A DNA stretch of 64,000 nt from Acidovorax sp. A79 (lineage in GTDB: Bacteria > Pseudomonadota > Gammaproteobacteria > Burkholderiales > Burkholderiaceae_C). The stretch lies in contig NZ_AP028672.1 in NCBI RefSeq assembly GCF_041154505.1, positions 4,256,501 to 4,320,500 of the forward strand, read 5' to 3'. Shown in pieces: positions 3,735 through 21,767 of this stretch. The notes beneath the pieces were generated by a model. It was given only the letters and a program-made list of their open reading frames with translations. It was not told the origin of the DNA and ran no database searches. The position numbers and the translations under genes are program-made. Every line of letters starts with the position of its first letter. Positions within the stretch are counted from its first letter, which is position 1.

Positions 3735-3911
3735 CACCGCGCTGGCGCAAAGGTATTTGAGGTCCGACAAACTGAGTTTTGCCCCGAGCGCGATGGGCTC
3801 TTCGCTTGGTACAAGAGCTGCGCTGCTTGAAACGGCGATCGGTTCGGGACGGTCATCGACTATAGGACACAGATCGTCCGATATGGCGATGGCTACACCT
3901 CTGCTCAACTC
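3735..3911 (-). pseudogene. Possible LysR substrate-binding-domain remnant
   Basis: One minus-strand frame reads as a stretch resembling the middle of a LysR effector domain: LSRGVAIAISDDL, then RPEPIAVSSS, then ALVPSEEPIALGAKLSLSDL. This is comparable to the family pattern 'L..GelDlAI ... vvpsdHPLa....vsLaDL'. There is no helix-turn-helix half and the frame has no credible start or end. The CTGAA tandem repeat sits exactly at its upstream edge. I infer a decayed gene; the resemblance is by eye only. Confidence 0.3.
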
Positions 3912-3916
3912 GAACG

Positions 3917-3959
3917 CTGAACTGAACTGAACTGAACTGAACTGAACTGAACTGAACTG
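3917..3959. repeat. CTGAA pentanucleotide tandem repeat, 8.6 copies
   Basis: Eight perfect copies of CTGAA plus a partial CTG, 43 bases without interruption. On the minus strand the unit is TTCAG and open frames through it read as repeats of SVQFS. A five-base unit shifts the reading frame at each gain or loss of a copy, which is the arrangement of phase-variable contingency loci, but no intact gene is evident around it. Confidence 0.95.
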
Positions 3960-4523
3960 CCTTGGCCGATATTTCCCAGGGCTGCGCCTGTGTCGGGATC
4001 GCTGCAACCTAGATGTTGATCGTTCCAGCCATGGGCAGCGCCCTGGCACCTCGTAGACTGAAATTTCTCTGTACAAATATGGCCCAGGCACAAAGGGGAT
4101 TCAATTGGTCCTCTCGCAACATGGGGCGATGGCAGTCTGGAGGGCGAAACAAGCGAATGCGATTCCGGAGGCTTGCGAACCTGAACCAAACATTGTCTAC
4201 GGGAAACCAGAAGGGAACCGGACACAATCTAAAGTCCAGTGGCGTGGAATCCTCGCGAACCAATCCAGAGTGGCACAGGTATCTAAACCTCTCTGTCGTG
4301 TGCTGCCAAAGGGCTCAAACAAATCAATGATTTACGTAAGGATCGAGACGAATGCGCGGTGGCGTTCCGCAGTAACGCAAGGCTCTACAATCGCCGCAGA
4401 CCAAAACGCCCTGCGCATTTGCGACCGGGGCGCCTGCGATGTGGTGCCCCCTGACCCGGCCGCTCCGCACGCGATAGAACGGCACACGGTCTCGCATCCA
4501 AACCTGGAGGAGTAGTGAGCCCA

Positions 4524-4907
4524 ATGGCACCCTTGCAAGTAACAACAGCACTCATGGGCACGGGTTTAGCCGTGCTGATTCTCTATCTAATACGCCGCGA
4601 TCATCTTTACCTGATGCATGGCCTTAGCTGGGCCGTTGCAGCCGGGGTCGCGGCGGTGCTGGGAGCTTGGCCGGGCCTGATCGACCGCTTGGCCGGATGG
4701 GCCGGGTTTGGCTACCCGCCAGCGCTCTTGCTGCTTTTGGCCTGTGTGTTGCTGGTAGTCAAGGCCCTCCACGCCGACATGGTAAATACCCGCATTGAAC
4801 GGGACATGCGCCGCTTGAACCAGCGACTCGCGCTGCTGGAGGCAGATAACGAAATCCTTCGCAATAGGGCGGCGACCGCAAGCCCCGCTGACATCATCGA
4901 CCCATGA
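4524..4907 (+). CDS. DUF2304 family small membrane protein
   Basis: A 127-aa protein with three hydrophobic segments (near residues 6-24, 33-50 and 66-82) followed by a charged helical tail (RIERDMRRLNQRLALLEADNEILR). This is the pattern of DUF2304 proteins, which often sit beside glycosyltransferases; their function is unknown. GGAGG at 4506-4510 could serve either GTG at 4515 (very short spacing) or ATG at 4524 (long spacing), so the start is uncertain by three codons. Its stop overlaps the start of manC in an ATGA arrangement, making it the first gene of the polysaccharide operon. Confidence 0.75.
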   Translation: MAPLQVTTALMGTGLAVLILYLIRRDHLYLMHGLSWAVAAGVAAVLGAWPGLIDRLAGWAGFGYPPALLLLLACVLLVVKALHADMVNTRIERDMRRLNQRLALLEADNEILRNRAATASPADIIDP

Positions 4908-6358
4908 CTTCTTATCACCTGCTCCCCGTCATCCTCTGTGGCGGTTCGGGTACCCGCTTGTGGCCACTCTCCCGTGAAACCTATCCCAAGCAATTCCTGG
5001 CACTGGGTGGCGACGGAGTTTCCATGTTGCAAGACACAGCAACACGTCTGGACGGCCTGGACTCCTCCATCCCGATGAAGCCACCACTTGTGGTGTGCAA
5101 TAGCGCCCACCGCTTCTTGGCGGCCCAGCAATTGCAGGAAGCCGGTGTTGACGGCGCGCAGCTTGTGCTGGAGCCTGCCGGCCGCAACACAGCCCCTGCT
5201 TTGACCTTGGCCGCCTTCGCGGCCGATTCTCAGGCCATTTTGCTGGCCATGCCTGCAGATCACGTCGTCGCAAACGCAGGGAACCTGCACCAGGCCGTGA
5301 AAGAGGCTTGGCCGCTGGCACAGGACGGCGCGATGGTCACTTTTGGCATTGTGGCCGACCGCCCTGAAACTGGATACGGCTATATCCAGAAGGCACATCC
5401 CATCGTAGGTACTGGCGCGTTCTCCATCCAGAGCTTTGAAGAAAAACCCAGCCTTGAACTGGCTCATTCATACGTCGCCAGCGGCAACTACCTGTGGAAC
5501 AGTGGCTTGTTCATGGTGCGAGCCGACCAATGGCTCAAGGCCATGGCGGCGTTGCAGCCTGCGATGTTTCAAGCCTGTCGCTCCGCCATGGAGCACAGCA
5601 GCCGGGACATGGACTTCATTCGTCCGCACAGTGAAACCTTTGCTGCTTGCCCGGCCGACTCCATCGACTACGCGGTCATGGAACATCTGCCGGGTCAGGA
5701 AGAACTAGACATGCCGGCTCGCGTGGTGCCGCTCGACGCTGGTTGGTCCGACTTGGGCGCTTGGGATGCGCTCTGGGACGTTTTGCCACGCGATGCCAGT
5801 GGAAACGCCCACGCCGGCCAAACCCTTGCGATCGACACCCGCGACAGCCTGTTGTTTTCCGAAACCTGCCTGGTGGCCACCGTGGGCGTGGATAACCTGG
5901 TGGTGGTGGCAACCGCCGATGCCATTTTGGTGGCGGACAAGCGCAAAACCCAGGACGTGAAAAAAATCGTGGCAGAGCTGAAAACGCAAAAGCGGAGCCT
6001 GGCTTCGACTCACCGCAAGGTGCACCGCCCGTGGGGCTGGTACGACAGCATCGACAGTGGCGAACGTTTTCAAGTCAAGCGCATCGTGGTTCATCCTGGC
6101 GCACAGCTCAGCCTGCAAATGCACCACCATCGGGCCGAGCACTGGATTGTGGTGAAGGGAACGGCGCAGGTCACCAATGGCGACAGGACCTTCTTGCTCG
6201 GCGAGAACGAATCCACGTTCATTCCTCTAGGCCATGTCCATCGCTTGGCAAATCCAGGCAAAGTGCCATTGGAAATTATTGAAGTGCAATCTGGAAGTTA
6301 TCTGGCGGAAGATGACATTGTGCGGTTTGAAGACACCTATGGCCGGATTGCTGAATGA
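4904..6358 (+). CDS. manC: Mannose-1-phosphate guanylyltransferase / mannose-6-phosphate isomerase
   Basis: Bifunctional type II enzyme making GDP-mannose, the precursor for the gmd/fcl branch further downstream. At 484 aa it has the usual length. The N-terminal nucleotidyltransferase shows the pyrophosphorylase signature GGSGTRLWPLSR with the conserved PKQF that follows. The C-terminal phosphomannose isomerase cupin shows HRPWGWYDS, then QLSLQMHHHRAEHWIVV with the metal-binding histidines. The start overlaps the DUF2304 stop. Its presence with gmd and fcl indicates a glycan containing mannose- or fucose/rhamnose-type sugars. Confidence 0.95.
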   Translation: MTSYHLLPVILCGGSGTRLWPLSRETYPKQFLALGGDGVSMLQDTATRLDGLDSSIPMKPPLVVCNSAHRFLAAQQLQEAGVDGAQLVLEPAGRNTAPALTLAAFAADSQAILLAMPADHVVANAGNLHQAVKEAWPLAQDGAMVTFGIVADRPETGYGYIQKAHPIVGTGAFSIQSFEEKPSLELAHSYVASGNYLWNSGLFMVRADQWLKAMAALQPAMFQACRSAMEHSSRDMDFIRPHSETFAACPADSIDYAVMEHLPGQEELDMPARVVPLDAGWSDLGAWDALWDVLPRDASGNAHAGQTLAIDTRDSLLFSETCLVATVGVDNLVVVATADAILVADKRKTQDVKKIVAELKTQKRSLASTHRKVHRPWGWYDSIDSGERFQVKRIVVHPGAQLSLQMHHHRAEHWIVVKGTAQVTNGDRTFLLGENESTFIPLGHVHRLANPGKVPLEIIEVQSGSYLAEDDIVRFEDTYGRIAE

Positions 6359-6383: not shown

Positions 6384-7154
6384 ATGAAGCACGTAGGCCT
6401 GATTGCTGAATTGGTACGGCGTGAATTCTCCGGGCGCTATCAAGGATCGCTGGGGGGGGTGTTGTGGGTCCTGATCCATCCGCTGTTTCTGCTGTCCATC
6501 TACACCTTGGTTTTTGGTGTAGTGCTGAAAACCCGTTGGGACGGAGGAGGAGGAACCTTCGGTTATGCACTGTATGTTTTTGCGGGGTTGATAGTATTCA
6601 ACGCATTTTCAGAGTGCTTGATAAAAGCGCCTGCGATGGTTGTGGGAAACCAGAATTTTGTGAAGAAGGTGGTTTTCCCTCTGGAAATTCTCCCCTTGGT
6701 GAGCGCTATCGTGGCACTGCTGCATGCGACCATTGGGATTGCTGTCTGGTTTCTGTGCTGCATGGTATTTTTTGGCATGCCAAAAATGACGGCACTCTTT
6801 TTTCCCATGATTTTTATTGCCATGCTCCCCCTGTTGCTGGGGATAGGTTGGATATTTTCCGCGCTGGGGGTAATGCTACGCGATACCGGGCAGATCGTTG
6901 GCATCATCAGTCATGTATTTTTGTTTGTTACCCCGATATTTTATTCTGCCGAAAGCATGCCTGAGCCATTGCGGTCGATTTTGATATGGAATCCACTCAC
7001 ACTGCTGGTGGGATGGATTCGTGATTTGCTTTTGATTGGGAATTTGCCTGGTGCTACCGGGATTTTTATTTATATGGCCTTCAGCATCGCTTTTGCATAC
7101 GGCTCGCTCTATTTTTTTAGGCGGGTCCGCCCCTTGTTTGCTGATTTGCTCTAG
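6384..7154 (+). CDS. wzm: Polysaccharide ABC exporter, permease subunit (Wzm/KpsM type)
   Basis: Inner-membrane channel subunit that moves undecaprenyl-linked polysaccharide to the periplasm together with the ATPase that follows three bases later. The 256-aa protein has an N-terminal VRREFSGRYQGSLGGVLW motif typical of ABC-2 polysaccharide exporters, about six hydrophobic segments and the late PIFYSAESMPE motif seen in this family. A run of eight G residues (6452-6459) lies in codons 23-26. Base composition is visibly more AT-rich than the flanking housekeeping genes. Confidence 0.9.
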   Translation: MKHVGLIAELVRREFSGRYQGSLGGVLWVLIHPLFLLSIYTLVFGVVLKTRWDGGGGTFGYALYVFAGLIVFNAFSECLIKAPAMVVGNQNFVKKVVFPLEILPLVSAIVALLHATIGIAVWFLCCMVFFGMPKMTALFFPMIFIAMLPLLLGIGWIFSALGVMLRDTGQIVGIISHVFLFVTPIFYSAESMPEPLRSILIWNPLTLLVGWIRDLLLIGNLPGATGIFIYMAFSIAFAYGSLYFFRRVRPLFADLL

Positions 7155-7157
7155 ATC

Positions 7158-8423
7158 ATGAATAACGCTGTCATCTCAGTCCGGGGCGTGAGCAAGTGCT
7201 ATCCAGTCTTCGATTCAGCCCGCTCCAGAGTGCTGCATACGCTGTGGCCAAAGTATGAACGGGGCGTCAGGGAGCATTGGGCTCTGCGCGACATTAATTT
7301 TGAAGTCCAAAAGGGAGAGTCCGTCGCCATCATCGGCCGAAATGGAGGGGGTAAAAGCACACTGCTTGAAATCCTGACAGGCACCCTGAAGCCGACGACG
7401 GGCTCGGTGAGCGTTCGTGGACGGGTTTCTGCCTTGCTGGAGCTGGGCAGTGGCTTCAATCCAGAGTATTCAGGTCGTGACAATGTGCTGCTGAATGGCC
7501 TGCTGCTTGGCTTGTCGCGCCAAGAGATCGTGGACCGATTTTCTGAAATCGAGGAATTCGCTGAAATCGGGGATGCCATCGACCGCCCGGTGAAAACATA
7601 TTCCAGCGGCATGATGATGCGCCTTGCCTTTTCCGTGCAGGTGCTGTGCGATCCCGACATTCTGATCGTCGACGAGGCCTTGAGTGTCGGGGACTTCTTC
7701 TTCCAGCAAAAATGCTTCAACCGCCTGCGGGAGATGCGCGACCGGGGGCTTACTCTTTTGTTCGTTTCCCATGACATGGGTACGGTTCGCGACCTGTGCC
7801 AAAGGGCCGTCTATCTGCGCAAGGGCGCGCAAATCTATGCTGGAGACGCGCAGGTGGCCATCCGGCGCTATTTTGCGGAAGGGGCGGACGTGCATGCTGC
7901 AATTTCCAGCGCCAAGTCTTTCAATTCAGACAGTGTATTTCCGCAACTGGCACAAGACATTGCTTGGTCACGGCCCGTGGCATCGGGAAAACCTCTCTTC
8001 GCTGTGCGCGTGCTGGATGCAAACGACTGCGATACGGTCGTGGCGCGTCTGGGCGATACGATCCGGATACGGGCCTATTTCCAGGGCGGCGGAGATATCG
8101 AGCGGCTGCGCGTGGCTCTCGTGCTCAAGAACCGCTACGACCAGATCATTAATGCCACGCATTCCAGAAGGCTGGGTTTCGATAACATTGTCTCGACGGA
8201 GCGTGACTGGTCTGCATTTGATTTCGAGATGGATTTACGCCTCGAAGCCGGATTGTATTCAATCCAAGTCAGGCTGGCTTCCGAATCCCAGGTCCCGAAC
8301 CAAGGTGTTGAGCTGGACTCGACGGGCTGGTTTGGCCCACTCGAGGTTCGCTGGGACTATGAGAACGAACCAGCGCCATTCCTGGGAATGTTTGGGTTGC
8401 CGGTGCGCGGGGCACTGGTCTGA
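7158..8423 (+). CDS. wzt: Polysaccharide ABC exporter, ATPase with C-terminal glycan-recognition domain (Wzt type)
   Basis: ATPase of the exporter. The N-terminal 250 residues carry Walker A GRNGGGKST (60-68; the usual Ala is Gly), signature YSSGMMMRL (148-156), Walker B ILIVDEAL (168-175) and the switch SHDM. Residues about 270-410 form an extra beta-rich domain, as in Wzt proteins that recognise a modification at the non-reducing end of the finished chain before export. In such systems chain length is set by a terminator enzyme, so the modifying enzymes encoded next door are candidate partners. That link is inference. Confidence 0.9.
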   Translation: MNNAVISVRGVSKCYPVFDSARSRVLHTLWPKYERGVREHWALRDINFEVQKGESVAIIGRNGGGKSTLLEILTGTLKPTTGSVSVRGRVSALLELGSGFNPEYSGRDNVLLNGLLLGLSRQEIVDRFSEIEEFAEIGDAIDRPVKTYSSGMMMRLAFSVQVLCDPDILIVDEALSVGDFFFQQKCFNRLREMRDRGLTLLFVSHDMGTVRDLCQRAVYLRKGAQIYAGDAQVAIRRYFAEGADVHAAISSAKSFNSDSVFPQLAQDIAWSRPVASGKPLFAVRVLDANDCDTVVARLGDTIRIRAYFQGGGDIERLRVALVLKNRYDQIINATHSRRLGFDNIVSTERDWSAFDFEMDLRLEAGLYSIQVRLASESQVPNQGVELDSTGWFGPLEVRWDYENEPAPFLGMFGLPVRGALV

Positions 8424-8455: not shown

Positions 8456-11086
8456 ATGAAAATACTCATCTGCGGCATGCCGCGCTCGATGACCACTTGG
8501 GCATTCAATGCCGTGCACGAGATATTGGCCGATCAGCATTTGAAAACGGTTTGGATAGATCCCAGCGACACAGCAGCCGAAGAACAGTTCGCCACCGCTG
8601 AGGAAAATATTCTCGCTAAATGCCATCACTACAGCGAAACGCTCGCTGATGCTGCCGATTGTATTATTTACTCTTACCGAGATATCCGCACGGCGGCGGT
8701 AAGCTATTTTCGCAAGTTTTCGTCCGACTGTGACCTTGGTCAACTGAATGCCTGGGTGCAGGCTGGTTCGGCCTGGATGAGGGTGGCCGATGCTGTCTTG
8801 CGCTACGAGCAGGTCGAGCGCAATCCTGAAAATGCCATGCAACAGCTAAGGCAATTGCTGGGCAAGAAATACGGCACCGAAGTGTTGTCCCTCGACAGTG
8901 ATGAGGTCTTGCTGTCCCGCATCGATGCCAGCTTCGTTCAGCGGCAGGCTGTCGAGAGCATTGACTACGACGCCCAGACCATGATCTTGCCAGCGCACCG
9001 GACCTTCCAGCCGGCGCCTGATGATTTGAACGCAGCAGAAAAGACTTTGTACCAGCGCATCGAGCGCGAATTCACGCCCTGGCTCGCCGAGCACTTCTAT
9101 ATGCAGCAGGAGGACCATGGACAAGCTCTTGACTATCGACTGGCCGCTCATGTGATGTCGCGGCTTGCCGGACCCGTTGTCATAGACGTTGGTGTGGAGC
9201 GCGGTTCCTTCATCGATCTTGCTTTGGGCGCCGGGGCCGAGCGTGTGATTGCCTTCGAGGCGCTTCCTCGGCATGTGGAGCACTTGCGTGAGCGCTTTGC
9301 CCGTGAGACCCGTGTCGAGGTGCGAGCCCAAGCGGCTTCCGAGCGGTCTGGCAAAGCCGTTTTCCACATTGCCATCGACCCTGAAGGTCGCGAGCTCGAC
9401 TATCACCACACCCTGGCGGACTTGGGCGACTCCACGACGGTTGTGCGCAGTGCGCGCGCCATCGAAGTGGAAACCGTTGCATTGGGTGGCCTTGTGGCCG
9501 ACAAGCAGCTACCGGGGGTGATTGATTTCCTGAAAGTTGACACTGATGGGCACGATCTTGCGGTGCTGCTCGGCTTGGGAGGGTTGCGTCCACGCTTCAT
9601 TCTGGCCGAGTACTGGGATACCTTGCCCGAGACCAGTGGCCGAAATCTATATACGCTTGCTGATCTGCACGCCTGGGCTACCGAACGCGGTTACGGCCAT
9701 TCAGTGGTAATCCGTCGCAATGGACGTTTTGAATCGCTGGAATGGGATGCCCCCTGGACGCAAGCCGGGGATTGGGGCAACGTGCTTTTTATTCGCGATG
9801 CCGCAGATCTGGCGATGGTGAGAGGTGCCGTTGGACGGCTGGCTCCCCAGGTTCAGGTACGCAACCAGACCTATCTTGCTACTCTCATCAAGGAATGCGA
9901 GGCCAAGGAAGCCGTGATACGGCGGCTTGACAACGAACTCAAGGCATTTCTAGGCCAGCGGCAAGCAGTCGAGGAGATTGAGTCGGAGGAACAAGCGTTG
10001 CTCAGGACCTTGGAGGGTCTGTCTGCGGCCTCCCAATCTGACCAAGAATCCACATCCCGCGAGGTATTGGCAGCGCAGCTTATTCGCAAGGAAATTGTGA
10101 TTCGAAAACAGGCCCGCGCGCTTGCCGCTTACCGTGTCGCATTTCCTCCCCTGTCGCCGTTCCTGCGCTCTATCGGTTTTGTCGGTCGCCATCTACGGGC
10201 GGCCCTGCGGCCCCGTCTAGGCCATCTCATCCAGCATCTGCCCCGGCAACTTGGATTACCCAAACCGTACGTCAGTAGTCTGCCGGCAGGGGATTTGCCG
10301 TCCATATCGATGGTCACGCCATCTTTTCAGCAGGCCCACTTCATTGGCCGGACGCTTGATAGCGTACTTGGCCAGAACTATCCCAAGCTCGAGTACTTCG
10401 TGCAGGATGGCGGCTCGACGGATGGCACTGCCGAGGTGCTTCGGTCCTATGGTGATCGCCTCACCGGCTGGGTGTCGAAAAGGGACGCGGGCCAGTCTCA
10501 GGCCATCAATCTTGGCTTTGCCTGTACCGGTGGCGACGTCATGGGGTGGCTCAATTCCGACGACTTGCTCATGCCGGGCGCCCTTCATCGCGTCGGAGAG
10601 TTTTTTGCTCAGCATCCTGAGGTGGATGTGGTCTATGGACATCGCATCCTGATTGATGAGGAAGACCGCGAAATCGGTCGCTGGGTGCTACCCGCTCACG
10701 ACGATAACGTGCTCTCCTGGGCCGACTTCATTCCGCAGGAAACACTGTTCTGGCGGCGCACGATCTGGGAAAAGAGCGGCGGTCAGATTGACGAGAGTTT
10801 TCGTTTCGCCATGGACTGGGATCTGCTGCTGCGTTTTCGCGGCGCCGGAGCGCGCATGGTGCGCTTGCCGAATTTCCTGGGTGCCTTTCGCATCCATGCA
10901 GCGCAGAAAACGTCTGCACAGATCAACGAAGTCGGCATGGAGGAGATGGCCCGGCTGCGCAAGCGTGCCTTGGGGCAGGACGTGACCTGGTCACAGACGC
11001 ACCGCGCCCTCCTGCCTTACCTGATAAAGCATGTTAATCATGACATCGCTTATCGGATGAAAAGGGTGTTGGGGGTAAAAAAATGA
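8456..11086 (+). CDS. Three-domain protein: sulfotransferase-like + FkbM methyltransferase + coiled coil + GT2 glycosyltransferase
   Basis: An 876-aa protein with an unusual fusion. Residues 1-215 look like a P-loop sulfotransferase: ICGMPRSMTTW (5-15) matches the 5'-phosphosulfate loop, and YSYRDIRTAAVSYFRKF (72-88) the 3'-phosphate-binding region. Residues about 235-450 are an FkbM-type SAM methyltransferase (VIDVGVERGSF, then FLKVDTDGHD). Residues about 470-555 are highly charged and helical, probably a coiled coil. Residues 617-830 are a GT2 domain (DGGSTDGT, LNSDD). No membrane segment is obvious. It follows wzt directly. A role in adding and capping the glycan is inference; the domain calls rest on motifs read by eye. 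Confidence 0.8.
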   Translation: MKILICGMPRSMTTWAFNAVHEILADQHLKTVWIDPSDTAAEEQFATAEENILAKCHHYSETLADAADCIIYSYRDIRTAAVSYFRKFSSDCDLGQLNAWVQAGSAWMRVADAVLRYEQVERNPENAMQQLRQLLGKKYGTEVLSLDSDEVLLSRIDASFVQRQAVESIDYDAQTMILPAHRTFQPAPDDLNAAEKTLYQRIEREFTPWLAEHFYMQQEDHGQALDYRLAAHVMSRLAGPVVIDVGVERGSFIDLALGAGAERVIAFEALPRHVEHLRERFARETRVEVRAQAASERSGKAVFHIAIDPEGRELDYHHTLADLGDSTTVVRSARAIEVETVALGGLVADKQLPGVIDFLKVDTDGHDLAVLLGLGGLRPRFILAEYWDTLPETSGRNLYTLADLHAWATERGYGHSVVIRRNGRFESLEWDAPWTQAGDWGNVLFIRDAADLAMVRGAVGRLAPQVQVRNQTYLATLIKECEAKEAVIRRLDNELKAFLGQRQAVEEIESEEQALLRTLEGLSAASQSDQESTSREVLAAQLIRKEIVIRKQARALAAYRVAFPPLSPFLRSIGFVGRHLRAALRPRLGHLIQHLPRQLGLPKPYVSSLPAGDLPSISMVTPSFQQAHFIGRTLDSVLGQNYPKLEYFVQDGGSTDGTAEVLRSYGDRLTGWVSKRDAGQSQAINLGFACTGGDVMGWLNSDDLLMPGALHRVGEFFAQHPEVDVVYGHRILIDEEDREIGRWVLPAHDDNVLSWADFIPQETLFWRRTIWEKSGGQIDESFRFAMDWDLLLRFRGAGARMVRLPNFLGAFRIHAAQKTSAQINEVGMEEMARLRKRALGQDVTWSQTHRALLPYLIKHVNHDIAYRMKRVLGVKK

Positions 11087-11109: not shown

Positions 11110-13914
11110 ATGCCTTCTCAAAAAATATGCGCGATGGGGGGAGCAACCCGTATTTCTGTGATCATTCCGCTCGAGTATCATCGCGGGCTTGCGGTGGATT
11201 GCATACGGGGCTGGGTGTCGAGCCAAGATTATCCTCGAGAGCTATATCGGGTGCTTATTGGAGCTCCGGCCGACTTCGACCGTGGTGAGCTTCAGGAAGT
11301 CCGCACGCTTTTGGGAGGCGGAGACTTGCTTCTAGAACTTGATCAGGGCCATGATATGACCTTGATTGAAGACGTGGCTCGTCATGCTGACACCGATCTG
11401 TTGTTGTTCTCGGAGTCGCATTGCATTCCGGAACCGGACGCCTTGAGTTATCTGGTCGGCGTGGCTCAGGAGCGGTCCGATTGGGCTGCATTCAGTGCGC
11501 CAACCCATGGCCTTACCAGCAATCTGCTATCACGCATTGAGTGCGATATCTACAGCAAGGACATCCGTGGCAAGCTCCAGTCCCATGACTGGCTTCGGGT
11601 GCTGGATCAGTGCTTTGTGATCAGGCGAGAGGCCTACGATGCCGTAGGCGGGTTTCGTGGAGAGTTTGGGCATTTTGCGGAGTGGCTTTTTGCCGCAACC
11701 ATGAAGACCCAGGGCCTGAAACTGGGTGTTGCCGAACGTGCGGTGGTGAAGCATGGTTATATCGGGGAATATGACGACCTTGAAGCCTTCACTGTCGATT
11801 TTGCATATGGCCAGATTAAGTACCTGTACGAACATTCAGAGGAACCTGCTGCCACCCTCTTTCCATCGATTCCTGAACTGGACGCACTGCTTGAACAAAC
11901 GAAAGACGAGCATATCCGGCTGATGTCGTATCCGGCCAAGGACAAGGCGCAGATACTTTGGCTGGGGCTCCGGAAAATCCTTCACAGAGACCCCGTTGGC
12001 TCGCTTGGCCCGTATCTCGCATGGGCCTCCAAGTGCCGCGCCCTGTCGCACTCGGGCTCCAAGGAGCGCTTGGAGGATGCGGTCAAGGCTGCCTCTGAAG
12101 CGAAGGCGCAGCTGGATCAGGCAATAGCAAACGAAGACTCGATAGCCGCACATCATCTTTTTGTCGAATGGTTTTCCAGGCTGGTGCAAAAAGGACGGTA
12201 TTCATATCTCGCTGAGCGTCATGCGGTAATATCGAAGCACACTATTGTTCGGCCCAGCGATTTCGCCCGGTATGGCGAGTGGCGTGCAGCCGGAGGATTT
12301 TCACCTGCGCGAGTTTTCGGGACCCATGATGCCGAGGGCACTGAACAAGGAACGATACGCTGGACGCTTCCCTGCTTTCAAATCATCCTGCCACTACATG
12401 CGGGAGAAGGCCGGAGAGTAGTCCTTGAATGGAGCACTGCACGACCACTGAATCCGACAGAGCTAGTGCGGATTCGCTTGAATGGTAAAAATTTACCCCG
12501 CTCTGCAATCAGCGTACAGCCCACCCGTCTGTTGATCGATGTCGAGGTCGATGTTTCTGGGTGGCATGAAATAGCTGTCAGTGTTTATCCTTTTCAGGGC
12601 GCGAAGGATGGCCGACTTTTCGGTTTGCCGCTGAAATTGGTGAACTGGCTGTCGGTAGATCAGACCGTGACGCGCGAGCAGCCAGGTGATGTCTCGCGTT
12701 ATTTTTTGCATGTCACCAAATGCGGTGGCACTACTGCCGCTATTTTGACTGCAAATGGATACGCAGCGGATGAATGTTTTGCACCTTATTCTGGCGCATA
12801 TGAGCCGGCAGATTTTCTATTGCACCCCTGGTCTGCGCATCGTGTACCATTTTATTCCGGACATTTTGCATGGACGATAGCTGCAGCTTTTCCACCAGGC
12901 GACACACGTGTCGCAACGATGCTTCGACATCCGATAGATCGGTTACTGTCGATGTACCATTACTTTCAGCAGCGCAATCGTATTAATAGAGGGCCGAGTT
13001 TTGAAGAGTGGATTCGCGCAGAAATTCGCTTCCAAAATACGATGGTTCGGCATTTCATCGCGGACACCAGCGATGACGAACACACTGGCGCGGAGGCCGT
13101 TTCTGTGCGTGCCAAGGCCGCGTTGGCAGAGGCCTGCAAAAATCTGCGTCAATGCGTGGCCGTCGGATTGACGGAAGAGATGGAGGACAGCGTCAATCTG
13201 ATGGCTCATGAGCTGGGCTTCCTGCCCCCGGAGGCCACTGGGCGTTTTAATGCGACCGAGTCACGTGCCGATATTTCCAGCGTAGATCCTGCTTTTCTTG
13301 CACAACTTGAAGAATGGTTTGCACCGGATTTTGCACTTTATGCTGAGGCGCAGGCTATATTTAAAGAAAATCGGGCCGCGCTTCATGCTGAAATTCTCGG
13401 CAACCTACCAACGCCTAGTACATCACAAGTACGTATGGAGCTTCGTCAGCGATACATGAAGAAGCTCCGTGCCGAAGCTGATATTCAACGTGAAAGCAAG
13501 GAATACCGTTGGACCGCGATGGATGTTTTTCACGGCGAAAACCTCCATGCGAGAGAGCAGGACCATGAATATATCCTGCGCTGGACAGCGCCAGGGGTTG
13601 CCACCAAATTCTATCTTCCCATTCAGCGCTCGGGGGTCTGGAAGCTGGAATTGGAGCTGCATCCGGCTATGGACTCTGAAAAGATCGACAAATGCAAGCT
13701 CACTATGGATGGCACCTTGTTACCAAGCCTGACTCATCAGAAAACGGAAGGACGGCGAATCACCTTGGCGACGAGGGTCGTTTTTGACAAGGGTTTGAGA
13801 GATGCAGGCGATGTGCCGGAACTGGCCATCGAAGTGCCTGTGTCGCGTGGTAGGAATGAATTTCGTGAAATCGGGATACCACTGCTTGGAATTAGATTGA
13901 TCCCTGAAGTTTGA
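11110..13914 (+). CDS. Large protein: GT2-like domain, sulfotransferase-like domain and two beta-sandwich-like modules
   Basis: A 934-aa protein. Residues 14-230 resemble a GT2 glycosyltransferase (RISVIIPLEYHRG, later LLLFSESHCIPEPDAL and FVIRREAYDAVGGF), although the usual DxD is replaced by SESH. Residues about 530-760 resemble a Sulfotransfer_2-type enzyme, with FLHVTKCGGTT (532-542) as phosphosulfate loop and MLRHPIDRLLSMYHYF (604-619) as the 3'-phosphate motif. Two beta-rich stretches (about 400-516 and 805-932) look alike: both start with a short F-G/H-E/D motif and a '.IRWT/ILRWTAPG' strand and end in GLPLKL / GIPLLGIRL. ATG at 11110 is chosen; ATG at 11134 is an alternative. Confidence 0.7.
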   Translation: MPSQKICAMGGATRISVIIPLEYHRGLAVDCIRGWVSSQDYPRELYRVLIGAPADFDRGELQEVRTLLGGGDLLLELDQGHDMTLIEDVARHADTDLLLFSESHCIPEPDALSYLVGVAQERSDWAAFSAPTHGLTSNLLSRIECDIYSKDIRGKLQSHDWLRVLDQCFVIRREAYDAVGGFRGEFGHFAEWLFAATMKTQGLKLGVAERAVVKHGYIGEYDDLEAFTVDFAYGQIKYLYEHSEEPAATLFPSIPELDALLEQTKDEHIRLMSYPAKDKAQILWLGLRKILHRDPVGSLGPYLAWASKCRALSHSGSKERLEDAVKAASEAKAQLDQAIANEDSIAAHHLFVEWFSRLVQKGRYSYLAERHAVISKHTIVRPSDFARYGEWRAAGGFSPARVFGTHDAEGTEQGTIRWTLPCFQIILPLHAGEGRRVVLEWSTARPLNPTELVRIRLNGKNLPRSAISVQPTRLLIDVEVDVSGWHEIAVSVYPFQGAKDGRLFGLPLKLVNWLSVDQTVTREQPGDVSRYFLHVTKCGGTTAAILTANGYAADECFAPYSGAYEPADFLLHPWSAHRVPFYSGHFAWTIAAAFPPGDTRVATMLRHPIDRLLSMYHYFQQRNRINRGPSFEEWIRAEIRFQNTMVRHFIADTSDDEHTGAEAVSVRAKAALAEACKNLRQCVAVGLTEEMEDSVNLMAHELGFLPPEATGRFNATESRADISSVDPAFLAQLEEWFAPDFALYAEAQAIFKENRAALHAEILGNLPTPSTSQVRMELRQRYMKKLRAEADIQRESKEYRWTAMDVFHGENLHAREQDHEYILRWTAPGVATKFYLPIQRSGVWKLELELHPAMDSEKIDKCKLTMDGTLLPSLTHQKTEGRRITLATRVVFDKGLRDAGDVPELAIEVPVSRGRNEFREIGIPLLGIRLIPEV

Positions 13915-13951: not shown

Positions 13952-15583
13952 ATGAATGTTTTGAATATAAACCGTCCGTCAATCGTTTCTATAAAATTTT
14001 TGATAATTTTATCTATTTTATATACGTGCTTTTCGGTTAACTTTTCCATTCAATATGGCCGTCTATCAACTGCCATAGGGTACGATGATATCGTTTATTT
14101 CAATGATGGCTTGACGCGACTACGCATATTCTATGAGAGAGGTATATCGGATTTCTTACTGGATCTGGGTAAGAATCCACCGCACTCACCGTTTTCTACA
14201 TTGCTTGCGGCAATTGGATTTGCGATTTTTGGGGTTCATGACTGGGCGCCCTATATTGCAAATACCGCTGTTGTCTTTGTCATGCTCCTGCTTGTAAGGC
14301 ATATTTCACGTAGCATGCGCTTCCCTGCACAGGTCGCCATTTTATTCTTTGCCTTGGCGCCATATTTTGTAATGGCCACTGTGCTGGAATTCCGCCCAGA
14401 CCTTCCGGCGGGACTTTTTGGGGCGATAGCTATTTTTATTGCTGTAACGAAGCCAATTACAGAGATGTCATTTCGTGATCGACTGTTTTTGGGGGGCTTG
14501 TTTGCATTGGCTTTACTGACCAAGCCAACCGCGTCTATTTTTGTTGTCGTGATGATGCTGGCGTCCTTGAGTTTTGCTGTATACCGCAGCAGTTACGCTG
14601 CATCTCACCGCACAACTGTCTTGTCTGCAATGTTTTTGGCGGTGCAATGCCTCTTGATATCGCTTGTTTTGGCTTTGCCATATTATTATGCGAATTGGGA
14701 TCATTTGACGCGATATGTGAGTGACGCTACTGGCAGCGATATTTGGGTCTATTCAAAAGACTGGGGCGTTAAGCTGTGGATGTACTTGACGGGAGTTTAT
14801 GGTAGTCGGTTGCTGGGGGGCTATCTGTATGTTTATGCTGTTGCAGTTGTCTTGTTTGGCGGTGTGCTGGTATTTTATGGAAAAAAGGATTCGGTAAAAG
14901 TTTTGGCTGGCTTGGTGGTCATGACTTTTTTGGCGTGGTTTGCACCAACTTATTTGGGAATGGGGAATCCATTTTTCGCCGCAACATTTTATTATCTATT
15001 TTTGTTTGCAGTGATTTATGGATTTGTAGAGGCTTTTGGCTTGATTGAGAAATCTATAAAGGCTCATCACTATGTCTATGCCTTTGGTGCAGCTGTGATA
15101 GCTTTTGTTCTATCGCTGAACTACGCGACGACGCAGGTATCTTTCCCCAGAGAGAAGCCATCGCATAGTGATGATTCCTTGAGAGTTTCGCAGGATATTT
15201 TTCAAGCGCTGGAAGATGATATTTCGCTGAAAAATCCCCGGCTGGTGACTGTATATTATACGGTCACCGGGTATGTTAATAATGACTTGTTTTCTTATTA
15301 CTTTAATAAAAAGAATAGAAAAATTGTATTGCAAGGGTTGTTTGCCATAGAATCAGATGAGCAAGAATGGGTGCGACTGCTTGAAATGTCTGACTATATT
15401 GTTGCCTGTGAGCCTGGTACGGGGGGGGTTGCCAATGAGAGCTTTCCCTCAGGGAAATTGCTTGATAAATCAATGGCGTTGGTTCGATCGAGGAATGACT
15501 TTGTGGAAATAAAATCCGTAAAAATGGCTACTGGAGCTAAATACTATTTGTTTAAGCGAATTGGTAAAGCTGGTGTGGTTTGA
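13952..15583 (+). CDS. Integral membrane GT-C glycosyltransferase (GT39/GtrC-like)
   Basis: A 543-aa polytopic protein with about ten to twelve hydrophobic segments. The first external loop after the initial membrane helix carries IGYDDIVYFNDG, the paired acidic residues expected in GT-C enzymes that use polyprenyl-phosphate sugars. A second loop has LEFRPDLPAG. It is followed by a DPM1/GtrB-like enzyme and a GtrA flippase, so it probably transfers the sugar delivered by those two. Codon use is strikingly AT-rich compared with the rest of the window, suggesting recent acquisition. A G8 run lies at 15421-15428. Confidence 0.75.
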   Translation: MNVLNINRPSIVSIKFLIILSILYTCFSVNFSIQYGRLSTAIGYDDIVYFNDGLTRLRIFYERGISDFLLDLGKNPPHSPFSTLLAAIGFAIFGVHDWAPYIANTAVVFVMLLLVRHISRSMRFPAQVAILFFALAPYFVMATVLEFRPDLPAGLFGAIAIFIAVTKPITEMSFRDRLFLGGLFALALLTKPTASIFVVVMMLASLSFAVYRSSYAASHRTTVLSAMFLAVQCLLISLVLALPYYYANWDHLTRYVSDATGSDIWVYSKDWGVKLWMYLTGVYGSRLLGGYLYVYAVAVVLFGGVLVFYGKKDSVKVLAGLVVMTFLAWFAPTYLGMGNPFFAATFYYLFLFAVIYGFVEAFGLIEKSIKAHHYVYAFGAAVIAFVLSLNYATTQVSFPREKPSHSDDSLRVSQDIFQALEDDISLKNPRLVTVYYTVTGYVNNDLFSYYFNKKNRKIVLQGLFAIESDEQEWVRLLEMSDYIVACEPGTGGVANESFPSGKLLDKSMALVRSRNDFVEIKSVKMATGAKYYLFKRIGKAGVV

Positions 15584-15668
15584 GGATTTTATCTGTGGAG
15601 CGCGGTCATTTCGTTCTCAAACTGAAAATTGTTTGAAGATATTTGCCTGCTTTAGTTATTGAGATATT

Positions 15669-16619
15669 ATGAAATCGCCTGATATTTCTTTATCCATTGT
15701 AGTTCCGGTCTACCAAAGCGAGCCTATTCTGCCTCTGCTGGCTGAGAAGGTGCAGCAGGAAATGAAGAAGTTGGAATTGCCGCTTGGGTTTGAGTTGATT
15801 TTAGTTAACGATGCAAGCCCTGATCGCAGCTGGAAGGTCATTCGTGATCTTGCGGCACGTTATTCTTTTGTGCGTGGGCTATCGTTGCGGCGTAATTTCG
15901 GACAGCACAATGCGATCATGGCAGGTCTTCATCAGGCCCGTGGAAAGATGGTGGTTGTGATGGACGATGATCTGCAGCATCCGCCAGATGCCATTGCACG
16001 TATGCTCGCTGCGCTTGAAGATGGTTATGACGTGTGTTACACGCGCTATAACAACCGTCAGCATGCAATCTGGAAGAAATTGGGAAGTGCCTTCAATGAC
16101 TGGGCTGCGCGCCATTTGTTAGGGAAGCCGCGAGGATTGTATTTATCTTCGTTCAAGGCTATCCGCGCTGATGTGGTGGCTGAGATTATTCGATATGACG
16201 GGCCATATGCCTATGTGGATGGATTGATCCTGGATGTCACTCGTAATATTCATGTCGTTGATATAAATCACCAAGCCCGCCACAGTGGGGAGGGGAATTA
16301 CAATCTTCGTCGCTCGGTGTCACTTTGGTTGAAAATGGCTACTAGCTTTTCCATTTTGCCCCTTCGAATCGCTTCTTACGCCGGCTTTTTGCTTTCTGGT
16401 GTCAGTCTGGTAATGATTTTTTATGTGATAGTGCAAAAATGGCTGTACCCGGAAATTCCAGCCGGTTGGTCGTCTTTGATTGCTACCATCCTGCTCATTG
16501 GAGGTGTCCAGACTTTGAGTATTGGCATGTTAGGTGAGTATTTAGGGCGCACATATCTGAAGCTGAATCATAAGCCGCAGTTTGTCATCGCATCGCGCAC
16601 GTGGGTGGAGTCTGCATGA
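15669..16619 (+). CDS. Polyprenyl-phosphate glycosyltransferase, GT2 (GtrB/ArnC/DPM1-like)
   Basis: A 316-aa enzyme expected to load a sugar from its nucleotide form onto undecaprenyl phosphate on the cytoplasmic face. The N-terminal GT2 domain has LSIVVPVYQSE, NDASPDRSW and the catalytic MDDDLQHPP (metal-binding DDD). Two C-terminal membrane helices (SFSILPLRIASYAGFLLSG and the segment near IATILLIGGVQTLSIGMLGEY) are typical of GtrB/ArnC. Its stop codon overlaps the start of the next gene (ATGA). Confidence 0.9.
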   Translation: MKSPDISLSIVVPVYQSEPILPLLAEKVQQEMKKLELPLGFELILVNDASPDRSWKVIRDLAARYSFVRGLSLRRNFGQHNAIMAGLHQARGKMVVVMDDDLQHPPDAIARMLAALEDGYDVCYTRYNNRQHAIWKKLGSAFNDWAARHLLGKPRGLYLSSFKAIRADVVAEIIRYDGPYAYVDGLILDVTRNIHVVDINHQARHSGEGNYNLRRSVSLWLKMATSFSILPLRIASYAGFLLSGVSLVMIFYVIVQKWLYPEIPAGWSSLIATILLIGGVQTLSIGMLGEYLGRTYLKLNHKPQFVIASRTWVESA

Positions 16620-17750: not shown

Positions 17751-18833
17751 ATGAAAGTTGCACTTATTACCGGCGTTACAGGCCAAGACGGAGCGTATCT
17801 TGCTGAACTGCTTCTTGAAAAGGGCTATGAAGTTCATGGCATCAAGAGGCGGTCATCGCTGCTCAATACGGATCGCATTGACCATCTCTACCAAGACCCT
17901 CATGTCCAGGGGCGGCGCTTTTTCCTGCACTATGGAGACATGACGGATTCATCCAGTCTGATTCGCATCATCCAGCAGGTCCAGCCTGACGAAATCTACA
18001 ATCTGGCGGCTCAGTCCCATGTTGCGGTTTCCTTTGAGGAGCCCGAGTACACGGCCAATTCGGATGCCTTGGGCCCGTTGCGCATGCTGGAGGCCATCCG
18101 CATTTTGGGGCTGGAGAGGAAAACACGTTTCTACCAAGCCAGCACTAGCGAACTTTATGGCTTGGTACAAGAGGTGCCGCAAAAGGAGAGCACGCCTTTT
18201 TATCCACGCAGTCCATATGCTGTTGCCAAGCTCTATGCCTACTGGATCACCGTCAATTATCGTGAGGCATATGGAGTCTATGCCTGTAATGGCATTCTTT
18301 TCAATCACGAGTCACCGGTGCGGGGCGAAACCTTCGTCACGCGAAAAATCACGCGGGCCATGGCGCGCATCAAGTTGGGGCTGCAGGATAGCCTTTACCT
18401 TGGCAATCTGGATGCCCGGCGTGACTGGGGCCACGCGCGCGACTATGTGGAGATGCAATGGCTGATGCTGCAGCAGGATCAGCCCGAAGATTTTGTCATT
18501 GCGACGGGGGTGCAATACAGCGTGCGTGATTTCGTGGATGCCGCTGCACAAGAACTGGGCATGACCATCCAGTGGAGCGGCCAAGGGGTTGAGGAGGTAG
18601 GTCGCGACGCACGGGGGCGAGTGATTGTGCGTGTCGATCCGCGCTACTTCCGCCCGACGGAGGTCGAGACGCTGTTGGGTGACGCCACACGCGCAAGGGA
18701 AAAGCTGGGCTGGGTGCCCAGGACTTCATTTGCCGACCTGGTTGCCGAGATGGTTCGCGAAGATCTCAAGAGTGCGGAGCGCGATGAATTGGTCAAGAAA
18801 CATGGCTTCTCAGCCTATGATTTCCATGAATAA
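17751..18833 (+). CDS. gmd: GDP-mannose 4,6-dehydratase
   Basis: Converts GDP-mannose to GDP-4-keto-6-deoxymannose using bound NADP. The 360-aa SDR protein shows the N-terminal Rossmann motif [17 protein letters not shown], the catalytic TSELYG serine/threonine-glutamate stretch and the YAVAK Tyr-x-x-x-Lys pair (PRSPYAVAK), then [16 protein letters not shown]. An AGGGG ribosome site lies just upstream of the ATG. The next gene starts within its last codons, so gmd and fcl act as a pair fed by manC. Confidence 0.97.
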
Positions 18834-19770
18834 CGCGGATACATCCCATCTGCGAATTTATATTGCCGGCCATCGGGGCATGGTGGGGTCGGCCATAATG
18901 CGCCGCCTGCGTTTAGGCGGGTATGGCGAGCCAATCACGCGTACCCACGCGGAATTGGACCTGACGCGGCAGGCGGAGGTCGAGGCCTTCTTTGCCCGGG
19001 AGCGGCCCGACTATGTATTTTTGGCGGCAGCCAAGGTGGGGGGTATCCAGGCCAACAATACCCAGCGGGGCGATTTCATTCTCCAGAATCTGGTCATGGA
19101 GAGCAATGTGATCGATGCAGCGCGGCGTAGCGGTGTGCCCAGGCTGATGTTTCTAGGGTCGAGCTGTATTTATCCCCGTGATTGTCCTCAGCCAATACGC
19201 GAGGAATACTTGCTGACTGGCCCGTTGGAGTCGACCAACGAGCCCTATGCCATCGCCAAGATCGCAGGCATCAAGTTGTGCGATGCGTTCAATCATCAGC
19301 ATGGGACACGTTATTTGTCGGTTATGCCGACCAACCTCTATGGCCCGAACGACAACTACGACCTGAACAACAGCCATGTGCTGCCAGCCCTGATTCGCAA
19401 GGCCCATGAAGCCAAAGAGCGGGGGGATGCGGAACTGGTTGTGTGGGGATCGGGGCGGCCCATGCGGGAGTTCCTCTACGTGGATGATTTGGCGGACGCG
19501 TGCGTGCGCCTCATGGAGTGGGGTGTCGGCGGCGGTATCTATAACATTGGAACCGGACAGGATGTGACCATTCGCGAGCTGGCGGCCACGGTGATGGAGG
19601 TTGTGGGGTTCAATGGCGAGATCGTGTTCGATGCCAGCAAGCCCGACGGCACGCCGCGCAAGTTGCTCGACGTCAGTCGCATGCGGGAGATGGGGTGGTC
19701 GGCCTCAGTCCCGCTGCGCGAGGGAATTGCACTTGCGTACACCGATTTCCTGAAGCGCTATGGGCCATGA
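18826..19770 (+). CDS. fcl: GDP-L-fucose synthase
   Basis: Epimerase/reductase turning GDP-4-keto-6-deoxymannose into GDP-fucose. It is 314 aa from ATG 18826, which overlaps the gmd stop; in-frame ATGs at 18802 and 18817 are alternatives. Visible are [14 protein letters not shown] (Rossmann), LGSSCIYP (catalytic Ser), and the [11 protein letters not shown]yr/Lys pair, followed by [15 protein letters not shown] typical of the family. Because fcl is present, GDP-fucose rather than GDP-rhamnose is the likelier product. Confidence 0.96.
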
Positions 19771-20519
19771 CCCAGCCCCTGGTTACCTTGGCTGTACCGT
19801 CGTTTCGCCAGGGCCGCTATCTGAATCAGGCTTTGTCTTCCATCTTTGCGCAGGATGTGCCTGTGGAAGTCTTTGTCATGGATGGAGGCTCGGACGACGA
19901 CACGCTGGCCGTATTGGACCGATGGAAGGACCGTCTAGCAGGCTGGCGCAGTCATCCCGATAGAGGGCAGTCCGAGGCTATCAATGAGGGTATAACAAAG
20001 GGCCGTGCGCCATATGTTTGCTGGCTCAACAGCGATGATTGGTTGTTGCCCCAGGGCCTTGCACGGCTGTTGGCTGCGTTGGAGCGCGCACCTGGTTCGG
20101 CCCTGGCCTATGGCAGCACTTGGGATTGGGTCGAGGCGACGGGTCGGCGCCGCCGGTCGCTGGTACTGCCGTTCAGTGAGTGGGCGATGGCGCGGGTGAA
20201 CGTCATTTCCCAGCCCGGCACGCTCATCCGGCGTAGTGCCTGGGAGGCGGTGGGTGGCGTGGACTCCGGTTTGCATATGGCGATGGACTACGACTTATGG
20301 TGGCGTCTTTACCGCCATTCGGGTGCGCCCGTGAGGGTGCCGGACATGGTTGCTGTCAACCGAGTGCATGCTCAGACCAAAACCAATACGCAGCGGAAGC
20401 GGCATTATCAGGAAGCGATGGCCGTGGTGCGGCAGCATCACGGCAAGGTTCCACTCAAATGGTGGCTGGCCTATCCCTACGCGGTGTGGTGGCGGGGCTG
20501 GCGTGGTTCGGCGAAGTAG
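19767..20519 (+). CDS. GT2 family glycosyltransferase
   Basis: A 250-aa cytoplasmic glycosyltransferase. The start overlaps the fcl stop in ATGA fashion. GT2 motifs are [26 protein letters not shown] and the metal-binding [11 protein letters not shown]. It resembles the GT2 domain at the end of the 876-aa protein (both have DRGQSEAIN / DAGQSQAIN and LNSDD), so the two are probably related members of one subfamily. It closes the plus-strand glycan operon. Confidence 0.9.
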
Positions 20520-20972
20520 TGAGGTTGTCAGCCGCAGTGCATTCGATTTGATTGCCGCCGCCACATCCCCCTTTGGGACGCGACCACCAATTTCTCCACT
20601 CATGGGTCGCAATCCTGATGCAGGTCGGGAGGGGCAAATCTTCGACAATTCGTCGGTCTGGGCTACCGGGGAGTGAGGAAAATAGCAACGGGCCCCCGTC
20701 TCTTGCGATCCTGTTCCAGAGGCCAACTGAGCGCGAGGCGGTTGGATGTGCGGCCCGCCAGTCCTGTGCATGCAGTTCTTTGCAGCAGATTGGGGCCGCG
20801 TTCAGTAGAGCGCTTGGTTTCGGCTTGGCCAATGTTTGCTAAATGCTGGTGTGCCGCTACGCTGCTCCAGCGCCCAAGCTTATCAATAGAAAACGACCTG
20901 TTCGCATTTTCCAACATCCTGGGTTTATCTGTAATACGATCAATATTAATATTTTTTGCTAATATTTGCATT
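20520..20972. other. Intergenic region before cysQ
   Basis: No gene recognised. The cysQ frame is open through much of this stretch (from 20673) but the extra 100 codons have no family counterpart. The last 40 bases (20933-20972) are very AT-rich (repeated AATATT) and probably hold the cysQ promoter; no precise boxes are assigned. Confidence 0.4.
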
Positions 20973-21767
20973 ATGCGTCAACAAGATATGATGGAGTTGG
21001 TGCCGGAATTGATTCGAACCGCCCATGCCGCTGCTGCGAGGATCATGGAGGTGTACGACAACGGCCCAGTGCTGACGCAATGGAAGGCGGATGAGAGTCC
21101 TGTCACTCAGGCTGATCTGGTGTCGCACAACAGTCTGGTGAACAGCCTGAGTGACTTGAAATTGGGCTGGCCGGTGGTGTCGGAAGAGGACGAATCGTCC
21201 CTGGCACAACGCAGGCCGGATCAATGTTTCTGGCTGCTGGATCCGCTGGACGGAACCAAGGAATTTCTTGGGCGCAATGGCGAGTTCACGGTAAATATCG
21301 CGCTCATCAAAGATGGCCGGCCAGTGCTGGGTGTGGTTGGCGCACCTGCGTTGGGGCGGCTGTATTGGGGCGGCCAAGCAATGGGGGCGTGGCGCATGGA
21401 CGCTAGAGGGGCTGCTGTGCCCATCCAGGTGGCACGGCTGCAAGTGGCCAAGCCGGTACGGGTAGTGGCGAGCAGAAGCCACATGGATGCCGCAACCCAA
21501 GCGTTCATTGGCCGGTTGGGGGACGCGAACGTGGTGCAGGCGGGGAGCTCGCTGAAGTTCTGCTTGCTTGCGGAAGGACTGGCTGATATTTACCCGCGGT
21601 TTGGTCCCACCTGCGAGTGGGATACGGCAGCTGCGCAGGCCGTATTGGAGGGGGCGGGTGGCGTCGTGGTGGACTTGGGCTGTGTGCCCCTGAGCTATGG
21701 CAAGCCGGAGGTGTTGAACCCCTTTTTCGTGGCGGCCTGCGCTATGGACGCAATCCCTCGCGATTGA
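20973..21767 (+). CDS. cysQ: 3'(2'),5'-bisphosphate nucleotidase CysQ
   Basis: Mg-dependent phosphatase that removes the 3' phosphate from PAP, the by-product of PAPS-dependent sulfotransfer and sulfate reduction. The 264-aa inositol-monophosphatase-fold protein shows SEEDES (first metal site) and WLLDPLDGTKEFL (second metal motif), then the late GPTCEWDTAAAQAVL motif. ATG 20973 is chosen; ATGs at 20988 and 20991 also fit. Its place next to a glycan cluster encoding two sulfotransferase-like domains suggests it supports sulfation, although a general sulfur-metabolism role is equally possible from the protein alone. Confidence 0.92.
   Translation: MRQQDMMELVPELIRTAHAAAARIMEVYDNGPVLTQWKADESPVTQADLVSHNSLVNSLSDLKLGWPVVSEEDESSLAQRRPDQCFWLLDPLDGTKEFLGRNGEFTVNIALIKDGRPVLGVVGAPALGRLYWGGQAMGAWRMDARGAAVPIQVARLQVAKPVRVVASRSHMDAATQAFIGRLGDANVVQAGSSLKFCLLAEGLADIYPRFGPTCEWDTAAAQAVLEGAGGVVVDLGCVPLSYGKPEVLNPFFVAACAMDAIPRD

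Follow-up and report, generated by a model that had tools for sequence, protein, structure and literature searches.

Domain layout of the fusion protein

The DNA analysed here, called the window throughout, is a stretch of 64,000 nucleotides from Acidovorax sp. A79 (contig NZ_AP028672.1, positions 4,256,501 to 4,320,500). Our subject is one open reading frame within it (8456..11086) that encodes a fusion protein of 876 residues, next to the genes of a Wzm/Wzt-type ATP-binding cassette (ABC) transporter; this gene, like the other genes of its cluster described below, lies on the plus strand. Pfam and NCBIfam scans together with an AlphaFold2 model give, in order, a sulfotransferase, an FkbM methyltransferase, a coil and a family 2 glycosyltransferase (GT2). 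By structure comparison, residues 1-217 (8456..9106) have the fold of sulfotransferases that use 3'-phosphoadenosine 5'-phosphosulfate (PAPS). Residues 225-445 (9128..9790) are an FkbM-type methyltransferase domain dependent on S-adenosylmethionine (PF05050 1.9e-10, 41.6 bits against a cut-off of 22.7; TIGR01444 1.9e-19, 70.6 bits against 37.7), and residues 611-840 (10286..10975) form the GT2 domain (PF00535, 76.8 bits against 23.3); Pfam itself places FkbM at 244-375 and GT2 at 618-742, both above cut-off. Between these two domains the model has helices at 452-526 and 533-570, which make up a heptad coiled coil of variable length (residues 452-570; 9809..10165; best window ~487-522), followed by a conserved basic segment (residues 560-610; 10133..10285), LRPRLGxLxQHxPR in the alignment of relatives, which is possibly membrane-proximal.

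When the full model was used as a Foldseek query, the top matches were chains of the WrtF fucosyltransferase, and the best 50 rows were all glycosyltransferases or synthases, aligned via the GT2 part. No kinase family was found among the Pfam and NCBIfam matches of the protein up to E 0.1. Relatives that carry names come from Paenacidovorax monticola, Delftia acidovorans and Acidovorax facilis, and all modules are under purifying selection. Conservation in relatives and the structure also rule out a chance assembly of weak domain matches.

The sulfotransferase-like domain

The Pfam match of the N-terminal domain to Sulfotransfer_1 (residues 3-144; E 5.8e-4, score 19.8) falls below the Pfam cut-off of 22; the fold of residues 1-217 is nonetheless that of a sulfotransferase, and its Foldseek matches include Teg12/StaL and SULT chains, which are single-domain. 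These enzymes act on glycopeptide antibiotics or small molecules, and their PAPS-site motifs have likely counterparts in the domain described here. Residues 7-15 (GMPRSMTTW; 8474..8500), exact in 47 of the 50 pattern-matching relatives out of 69 examined, are what we take to be the 5'-phosphosulfate-binding loop, with Met at the place of the usual Gly. We likewise equate residues 55-59 (KCHHY; 8618..8632) with the Lys-x-His motif of SULTs; K55 and H57 are invariant in two alignments (14/14 and 37/37 rows), and one relative, P0045, is without the Lys. Residues 72-83 (YSYRDIRTAAVS; 8669..8704), conserved in relatives, are presumably the 3'-phosphate-binding loop. The ratio of nonsynonymous to synonymous polymorphism (pN/pS) of the sulfotransferase part, 0.12-0.17, speaks against a decayed enzyme, and a P-loop kinase was rejected since nucleotide kinases appear in the Foldseek results only at rank 36 and below, with MeaB at ranks 33-35. 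Judged by layout and relatives, both the sulfotransferase and the FkbM methyltransferase are probably catalytically active.

The domain is rare. Its profile matched 2 of 250 family genomes (threshold E 1e-10) and, at E 1e-8, 1 of 399 order, 3 of 398 phylum and 1 of 369 class genomes, with the window's own genome counted each time, so that a broad occurrence was rejected; residues 1-448 gave no plasmid match at E 1e-10.

The coiled coil and the exchange of N-terminal modules

Among the 69 relatives, 40 have both anchors needed to measure the linker, and its length ranges from 116 to 300 residues with a median of 186. In 35 non-redundant linkers out of 44, hydrophobicity peaks at a period of 3.50 residues with a power of 2.59, against 1.03 +- 0.08 for shuffled sequences (largest 1.24) and 0.98 for a methyltransferase control; this period therefore points to a coiled coil. 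The coil of the window's protein scores 6.74 against a threshold of 6, and none of 158 control GT2 domains reaches 6; score and threshold were devised for the present analysis, and it is these GT2 domains, and no known terminator, that calibrate them. The spacing of KE motifs is a multiple of 7 in 21 of 62 cases, which is suggestive only. An earlier note on this DNA had read sulfotransferase-like, FkbM, coiled-coil and GT2 parts on one polypeptide and had proposed a coiled coil for the helical region 470-555; the domain scans and the fold confirm the former, while structure prediction, heptad period and a score above threshold bear out the latter.

Used as a query, residues 565-876 had 2218 matches with E no higher than 1e-40, and the best 120, which were listed, supplied 101 added proteins. 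The N-terminal regions of 158 GT2-bearing proteins fall into a sulfotransferase/FkbM group (59), a tandem glycosyltransferase group (44), a methyltransferase-like group recognised by the motif 'VETGTF' (41; the two proteins scanned match Methyltransf_24 at only 0.035-0.059), a carbamoyltransferase group (3) and small groups. Coils were called in 28/59, 16/41 and 2/3 of the proteins with sulfotransferase/FkbM, VETGTF and carbamoyltransferase modules, and in 1/44, 0/2 and 1/2 of those with glycosyltransferase N-modules. Pooled, this is 46/103 for cap-type modules against 2/48 (Fisher 1.4e-7), a p-value that is indicative only, the rows being mutually related. The test omitted P0070, P0166, P0140, P0161, P0085, P0117 and P0167, none with a coil call; with all seven counted as cap-type the figure becomes 46/110 (Fisher 4.3e-7).

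A census of the 69 relatives by motif found all three modules in 44, sulfotransferase and FkbM without GT2 in 12, sulfotransferase and GT2 without FkbM in 8, and FkbM and GT2 without sulfotransferase in 5; some of these partial proteins are perhaps fragments cut by contig ends. One metagenomic protein, P0085, carries on the same GT2 body an N-terminal part that looks kinase-like by eye (HVDPVYWN...IDLND); a PDB sequence search with this part gave no match.

The neighbouring exporter and the Wzt C-terminal domain

The permease gene wzm (6384..7154; PF01061 2.9e-18) and the ATPase gene wzt (7158..8423; Pfam scan) precede the fusion gene. The Wzt protein has a C-terminal extension with a domain of carbohydrate-binding type (residues 246-421; 7893..8423; Wzt_C 1.1e-6). 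The order wzm-wzt-fusion gene is kept in A. facilis and in genome G003, and in all five readable fused loci (window, A. facilis, G003, G356 and G675) the Wzt C-domains are related in sequence, so the earlier note's proposal that the fusion stands beside a Wzt with an extra C-domain, with co-occurrence elsewhere, holds for every such locus. In six other C-extended Wzts (two of genome G085, the second of the window's own genome, and those of G187, G413 and G285) no C-domain matches below E 0.01, the nearest being at 0.047, while the ATPase parts are 46-54% identical; the four of these that were scanned all have a Wzt_C domain. The set of six excludes the G780 ATPase, and the comparison leaves aside G369, whose contig starts inside the gene, G656, the third Wzt of G085 and the second of G003.

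Two of the fused loci differ in their cap modules. In G356 a contig-cut Wzt, with a C-domain 44% identical to the window's over 154 aa, is followed by a stand-alone sulfotransferase (309 aa) and then by a carbamoyltransferase-GT2 fusion (943 aa). In G675 the order is an epimerase of GDP-fucose-synthase type (named from sequence), wzm, wzt, a hexapeptide transferase, a carbamoyltransferase and a VETGTF-coil-GT2 fusion (coil score 7.69), and the Wzt C-domain is 34% identical to the window's over 178 aa.

Some further observations concern exporter loci. In G003 the wzt gene falls into two frames, one on either side of the junction of ATPase and C-domain (L014 14870-16001 / L011, L046, L049); the cause is perhaps an error of sequencing, perhaps a genuine interruption. 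In G413 a 385-aa protein beside Wzt (L036 7801-8958) has a repetitive, coil-like N-terminal part (score 5.1, below threshold) and a methyltransferase C-terminal part, and lies near a stand-alone related GT2; it is perhaps a split terminator with reversed order. A capsule-type ABC cluster of genome G867 encodes two long proteins rich in coil (L017 8560-13581 and L018 4424-6171), whose internal repeats are nearly identical, and it also has three genes with Sulfotransfer_1 matches.

Sugar and sulfate supply in the cluster

Upstream of the fusion gene lie genes for a DUF2304 protein, ManC, Wzm and Wzt. The manC product (4904..6358; TIGR01479 2.4e-197) is a mannose-1-phosphate guanylyltransferase / mannose-6-phosphate isomerase that provides GDP-mannose. 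The cluster is headed by the DUF2304 gene, and some 0.56 kb before it lies a pentanucleotide tandem repeat, (GAACT)n, at 3919-3956, where an 18-base unit pattern matches exactly five times with overlaps; this repeat is a possible slippage site.

Directly downstream, a 934-aa protein (11110..13914; Pfam scan) combines a GT2-like N-terminal part with a weak Sulfotransfer_2 C-terminal part; its gene is absent in A. facilis and G003, where a PMT_2 gene comes directly after the fusion gene. There follow in the window a PMT_2 membrane protein, a GT2 of dolichyl-phosphate-mannose-synthase type (named from sequence), a methyltransferase (16601-17290; Pfam scan), GtrA, Gmd, Fcl, a further GT2 and CysQ. 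The PMT_2, synthase-like GT2 and GtrA genes at 13952-17663, with the methyltransferase gene between them, look like a three-component periplasmic side-branch glycosylation set that would work after export. GDP-mannose 4,6-dehydratase is encoded by gmd (17751..18833; TIGR01472 above cut-off) and GDP-L-fucose synthase by fcl (18625..19770; NF047922 3.9e-144, 479.7 bits against a cut-off of 500); since the fcl domain begins only at residue 76 of the longest frame, translation must start downstream of that frame's first codon. The stand-alone GT2 (19695..20519; Pfam scan and sequence comparison) is 37% identical to the fused one. The sugar of the polysaccharide is thus probably a product of GDP-mannose/GDP-fucose, and the donor of the fused GT2 may be GDP-fucose, because gmd and fcl are in the cluster and WrtF fucosyltransferase chains are the best Foldseek matches. 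Neither Wzx nor Wzy was found among the scanned reading frames of the cluster, a scan that included no search aimed at them.

The cysQ gene (20673..21767; TIGR01331 above cut-off) encodes a 3'(2'),5'-bisphosphate nucleotidase, which removes 3'-phosphoadenosine 5'-phosphate, the by-product of sulfotransferases. In G003 a fused cysNC, cysD and cysQ lie beside the cluster, all above NCBIfam cut-offs.

An unfused pair at the same chromosomal site

Positions 1-4371 of the window are 97% identical in DNA to the left flank of a cluster in G085, a genome of the same species (L054; C11:395000-411000). This cluster consists of manC (by sequence), wzm, wzt (Wzt_C 1.1e-26), genes for a sulfotransferase, an FkbM protein, a double GT4 and a second FkbM protein, and gmd. 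The stand-alone sulfotransferase has 231 aa (Sulfotransfer_1 2.5e-7, above cut-off) and the FkbM protein 427 aa (1.1e-22); the latter contains a coil-like stretch, whose score of 5.5 does not reach the threshold. Compared with the fused protein, the two give only short local BLAST matches (best E 0.001). Two largely unrelated clusters at one site therefore pair a sulfotransferase with an FkbM methyltransferase, in the same order and right after a C-extended wzt.

A proposed sulfo/methyl-capping chain-length terminator

We suggest, with a probability of roughly 0.63, that the fusion protein is a sulfo/methyl-capping chain-length terminator fused to a polymerase module, serving an O-polysaccharide exported by Wzm/Wzt. 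One reason is its plan, which is the same as that of ORF6 of Klebsiella pneumoniae O7, with sulfotransferase and FkbM as the distal enzymes. ORF6 is an experimentally characterised terminator in which methyltransferase and kinase are joined through a coil to two GT2 polymerase modules (PMC11231755). The proposal also draws on the fold, conserved motifs and pN/pS of the N-terminal domain, the heptad period and varying length of the coil and its preference for cap-type modules, the relatives with cap modules and coil but no GT2, the related Wzt C-domains, the unfused pair in G085, and the genes for sulfate supply in the window and G003. In the protein of the window, the C-terminal GT2, either by itself or together with the cluster's other GT2, would lengthen the lipid-linked chain at the membrane, and the heptad coiled coil would hold the two N-terminal enzymes, sulfotransferase and FkbM methyltransferase, at a distance from it. 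A chain would receive sulfate and methyl at its non-reducing end only once it had grown far enough to meet these enzymes; such a cap would stop chain growth, and the Wzt C-terminal domain would bind the capped end and admit the finished chain to Wzm. That the chain end is where the two enzymes work, that the coil is a ruler and that Wzt reads the cap is what the layout and the relatives suggest by analogy. The earlier note had thought of a new kind of terminator that caps with methyl and/or sulfate: the terminator layout it predicted is supported, but the machine type is already known from O7 ORF6 and only the chemistry would be new. We put forward more tentatively, at somewhat less than even odds, that the coil and GT2 form a common body that takes interchangeable caps (sulfotransferase, several methyltransferases, carbamoyltransferase, perhaps kinase), with a matching Wzt C-domain lineage travelling along.

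Several findings weigh against the terminator proposal. Met replaces the Gly of the phosphosulfate loop in nearly all family members; the coil of the window's protein is short, AlphaFold2 confidence (pLDDT) for it is modest, and its own heptad signal has p = 0.021, or p = 0.10 by an earlier statistic. The adenosine 5'-phosphosulfate kinase of the same genome, located elsewhere, is weak evidence of sulfate supply; 27 of 110 family genomes carry one. Of the five related Wzt C-domains, three come from close relatives (fused proteins 83% identical), which leaves about three independent lineages; the G675 ATPase part is itself 60% identical to the window's, compared with 46-54% for the six others, the fusions of G356 and G675 bear other cap modules, and in that of G356 no coil is called, its best score (4.3) lying within the GT2. 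Cases where the fusion is absent also count here: in G780 a non-fused relative of the N-domain adjoins a 239-aa ATPase without C-domain; in G867 such a relative (515 aa) sits among Wza/KpsD-like, ABC-2 permease and Wzz/KpsE-like genes in a cluster of capsule type, which speaks against a general link; no Wzm/Wzt was found in the stretches read around the stand-alone GT2 relatives of G743 and G790, nor within 16 kb in G344. Finally, the G085 Wzt stands beside an unfused sulfotransferase and FkbM, and its C-domain has no detectable similarity to the window's; the C-domain therefore tracks the fused body and not the presumed sulfo/methyl cap chemistry, and G085 counts against it as a plain sulfo/methyl sensor. 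Differing underlying sugars could explain this dissimilarity. The stand-alone sulfotransferase of G085 thus strengthens the pairing of sulfotransferase and FkbM, while it weakens the link between C-domain and cap chemistry.

The main rival, which we consider unlikely, is tailoring of the repeat unit, with the sulfotransferase and methyltransferase decorating sugars along the chain, the coil a mere oligomerisation spacer and length set otherwise. It is plausible for a sugar transferase to be fused to tailoring enzymes; since the cluster also encodes another, weak sulfotransferase (11110-13914) and another methyltransferase (16601-17290), sulfate or methyl could be distributed along the chain; G085 has both activities as separate small genes, as is common for tailoring enzymes; and many coil-GT2 proteins bear only a small methyltransferase-like module. 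Such decoration does not, however, predict that coil length varies strongly, that the coil is nearly absent where the N-module is a glycosyltransferase, or that fused loci have related Wzt C-domains.

A terminator that caps with methyl only is less probable still; in it the sulfotransferase-like domain would be non-catalytic and bind substrate, leaving FkbM alone to cap. The conserved Lys/His and 3'-phosphate loop, the purifying selection on the sulfotransferase part, the 8 of 69 relatives that retain its motif without that of FkbM, and cysNC, cysD and cysQ beside the G003 cluster all count against it; in its favour are the Gly to Met change, the Sulfotransfer_1 score below cut-off and the 5 of 69 relatives with FkbM and GT2 but no sulfotransferase motif, at least one of which (P0042) is apparently cut at its N-terminus. 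We regard as very improbable an adaptor or primer enzyme that acts at the reducing end without influencing chain length: just one sugar could be what a lone GT2 domain adds, and the separate GT2 (19695-20519) could be the polymerase, yet such an enzyme would have no need of cap-type enzymes or of a coil that varies in length, nor would one expect it to be linked to the Wzt C-domain.

Relation to known systems and implications

Returning to the terminator that we favour, what it shares with O7 ORF6 are N-terminal terminating enzymes including a methyltransferase, a coiled coil, a C-terminal GT2 and an ABC-exported O-polysaccharide; O7 ORF6 has a methyl-phosphate cap, a carbohydrate-binding module and two GT2 domains, whereas the fusion of the window has sulfotransferase and FkbM and one GT2 (PMC11231755). 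The string 'sulf' occurs 0 times in the text of that paper. WbbB of K. pneumoniae O12 likewise joins terminator and polymerase in one polypeptide, and differs in that its cap, beta-Kdo, is added by an N-terminal glycosyltransferase (as described in PMC11231755). In the WbdD proteins of Escherichia coli O9a and O8, too, a coil bears the cap enzyme(s) at its end, and a Wzt-linked carbohydrate-binding module recognises WbdD-capped chains; in O9a, WbdD has a methyltransferase and then a kinase, with a separate polymerase, WbdA, and no sulfotransferase (PMC3482155). Family members with cap modules and coil but without GT2 (12/69 by motif, some perhaps contig-cut) have the WbdD layout. In the S-layer glycan pathway of Geobacillus stearothermophilus, which is ABC-exported, WsaE fuses a methyltransferase to glycosyltransferases and is not known to carry a sulfotransferase.

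A sulfotransferase next to an O-antigen exporter has a precedent in Aeromonas salmonicida A450, where the wbsalmo cluster, an ABC O-antigen cluster that includes a WbbB, has ORF19, a 216-aa protein with a sulfotransferase domain, immediately behind Wzt (438 aa) (PMC4483657). Unlike the fusion described here, ORF19 stands alone; it may be compared with the separate sulfotransferases that come after wzt in G085 and G356. The excerpts of open-licence literature on sulfotransferases with O-antigen termination, Wzt, coiled-coil or ABC transporters (including PMC4483657 and PMC13171606) describe no such fusion.

The characterised terminators covered in the sources cited here cap with methyl, methyl-phosphate or Kdo (PMC11231755, PMC3482155). 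A sulfate cap, if true, would widen the chemistry by which chains are stopped and marked for export, and would be a new signal of this sort for bacterial surface polysaccharides. Across the family both the linker (116-300 residues) and the cap vary on a single body, which makes its members a natural set of variants for direct tests of the ruler model and of how Wzt recognises caps; one species has the sulfotransferase/FkbM pair both fused and unfused at the same chromosomal site. Sulfated chain ends, if they do occur, would alter the surface charge and antigenicity of the cell.

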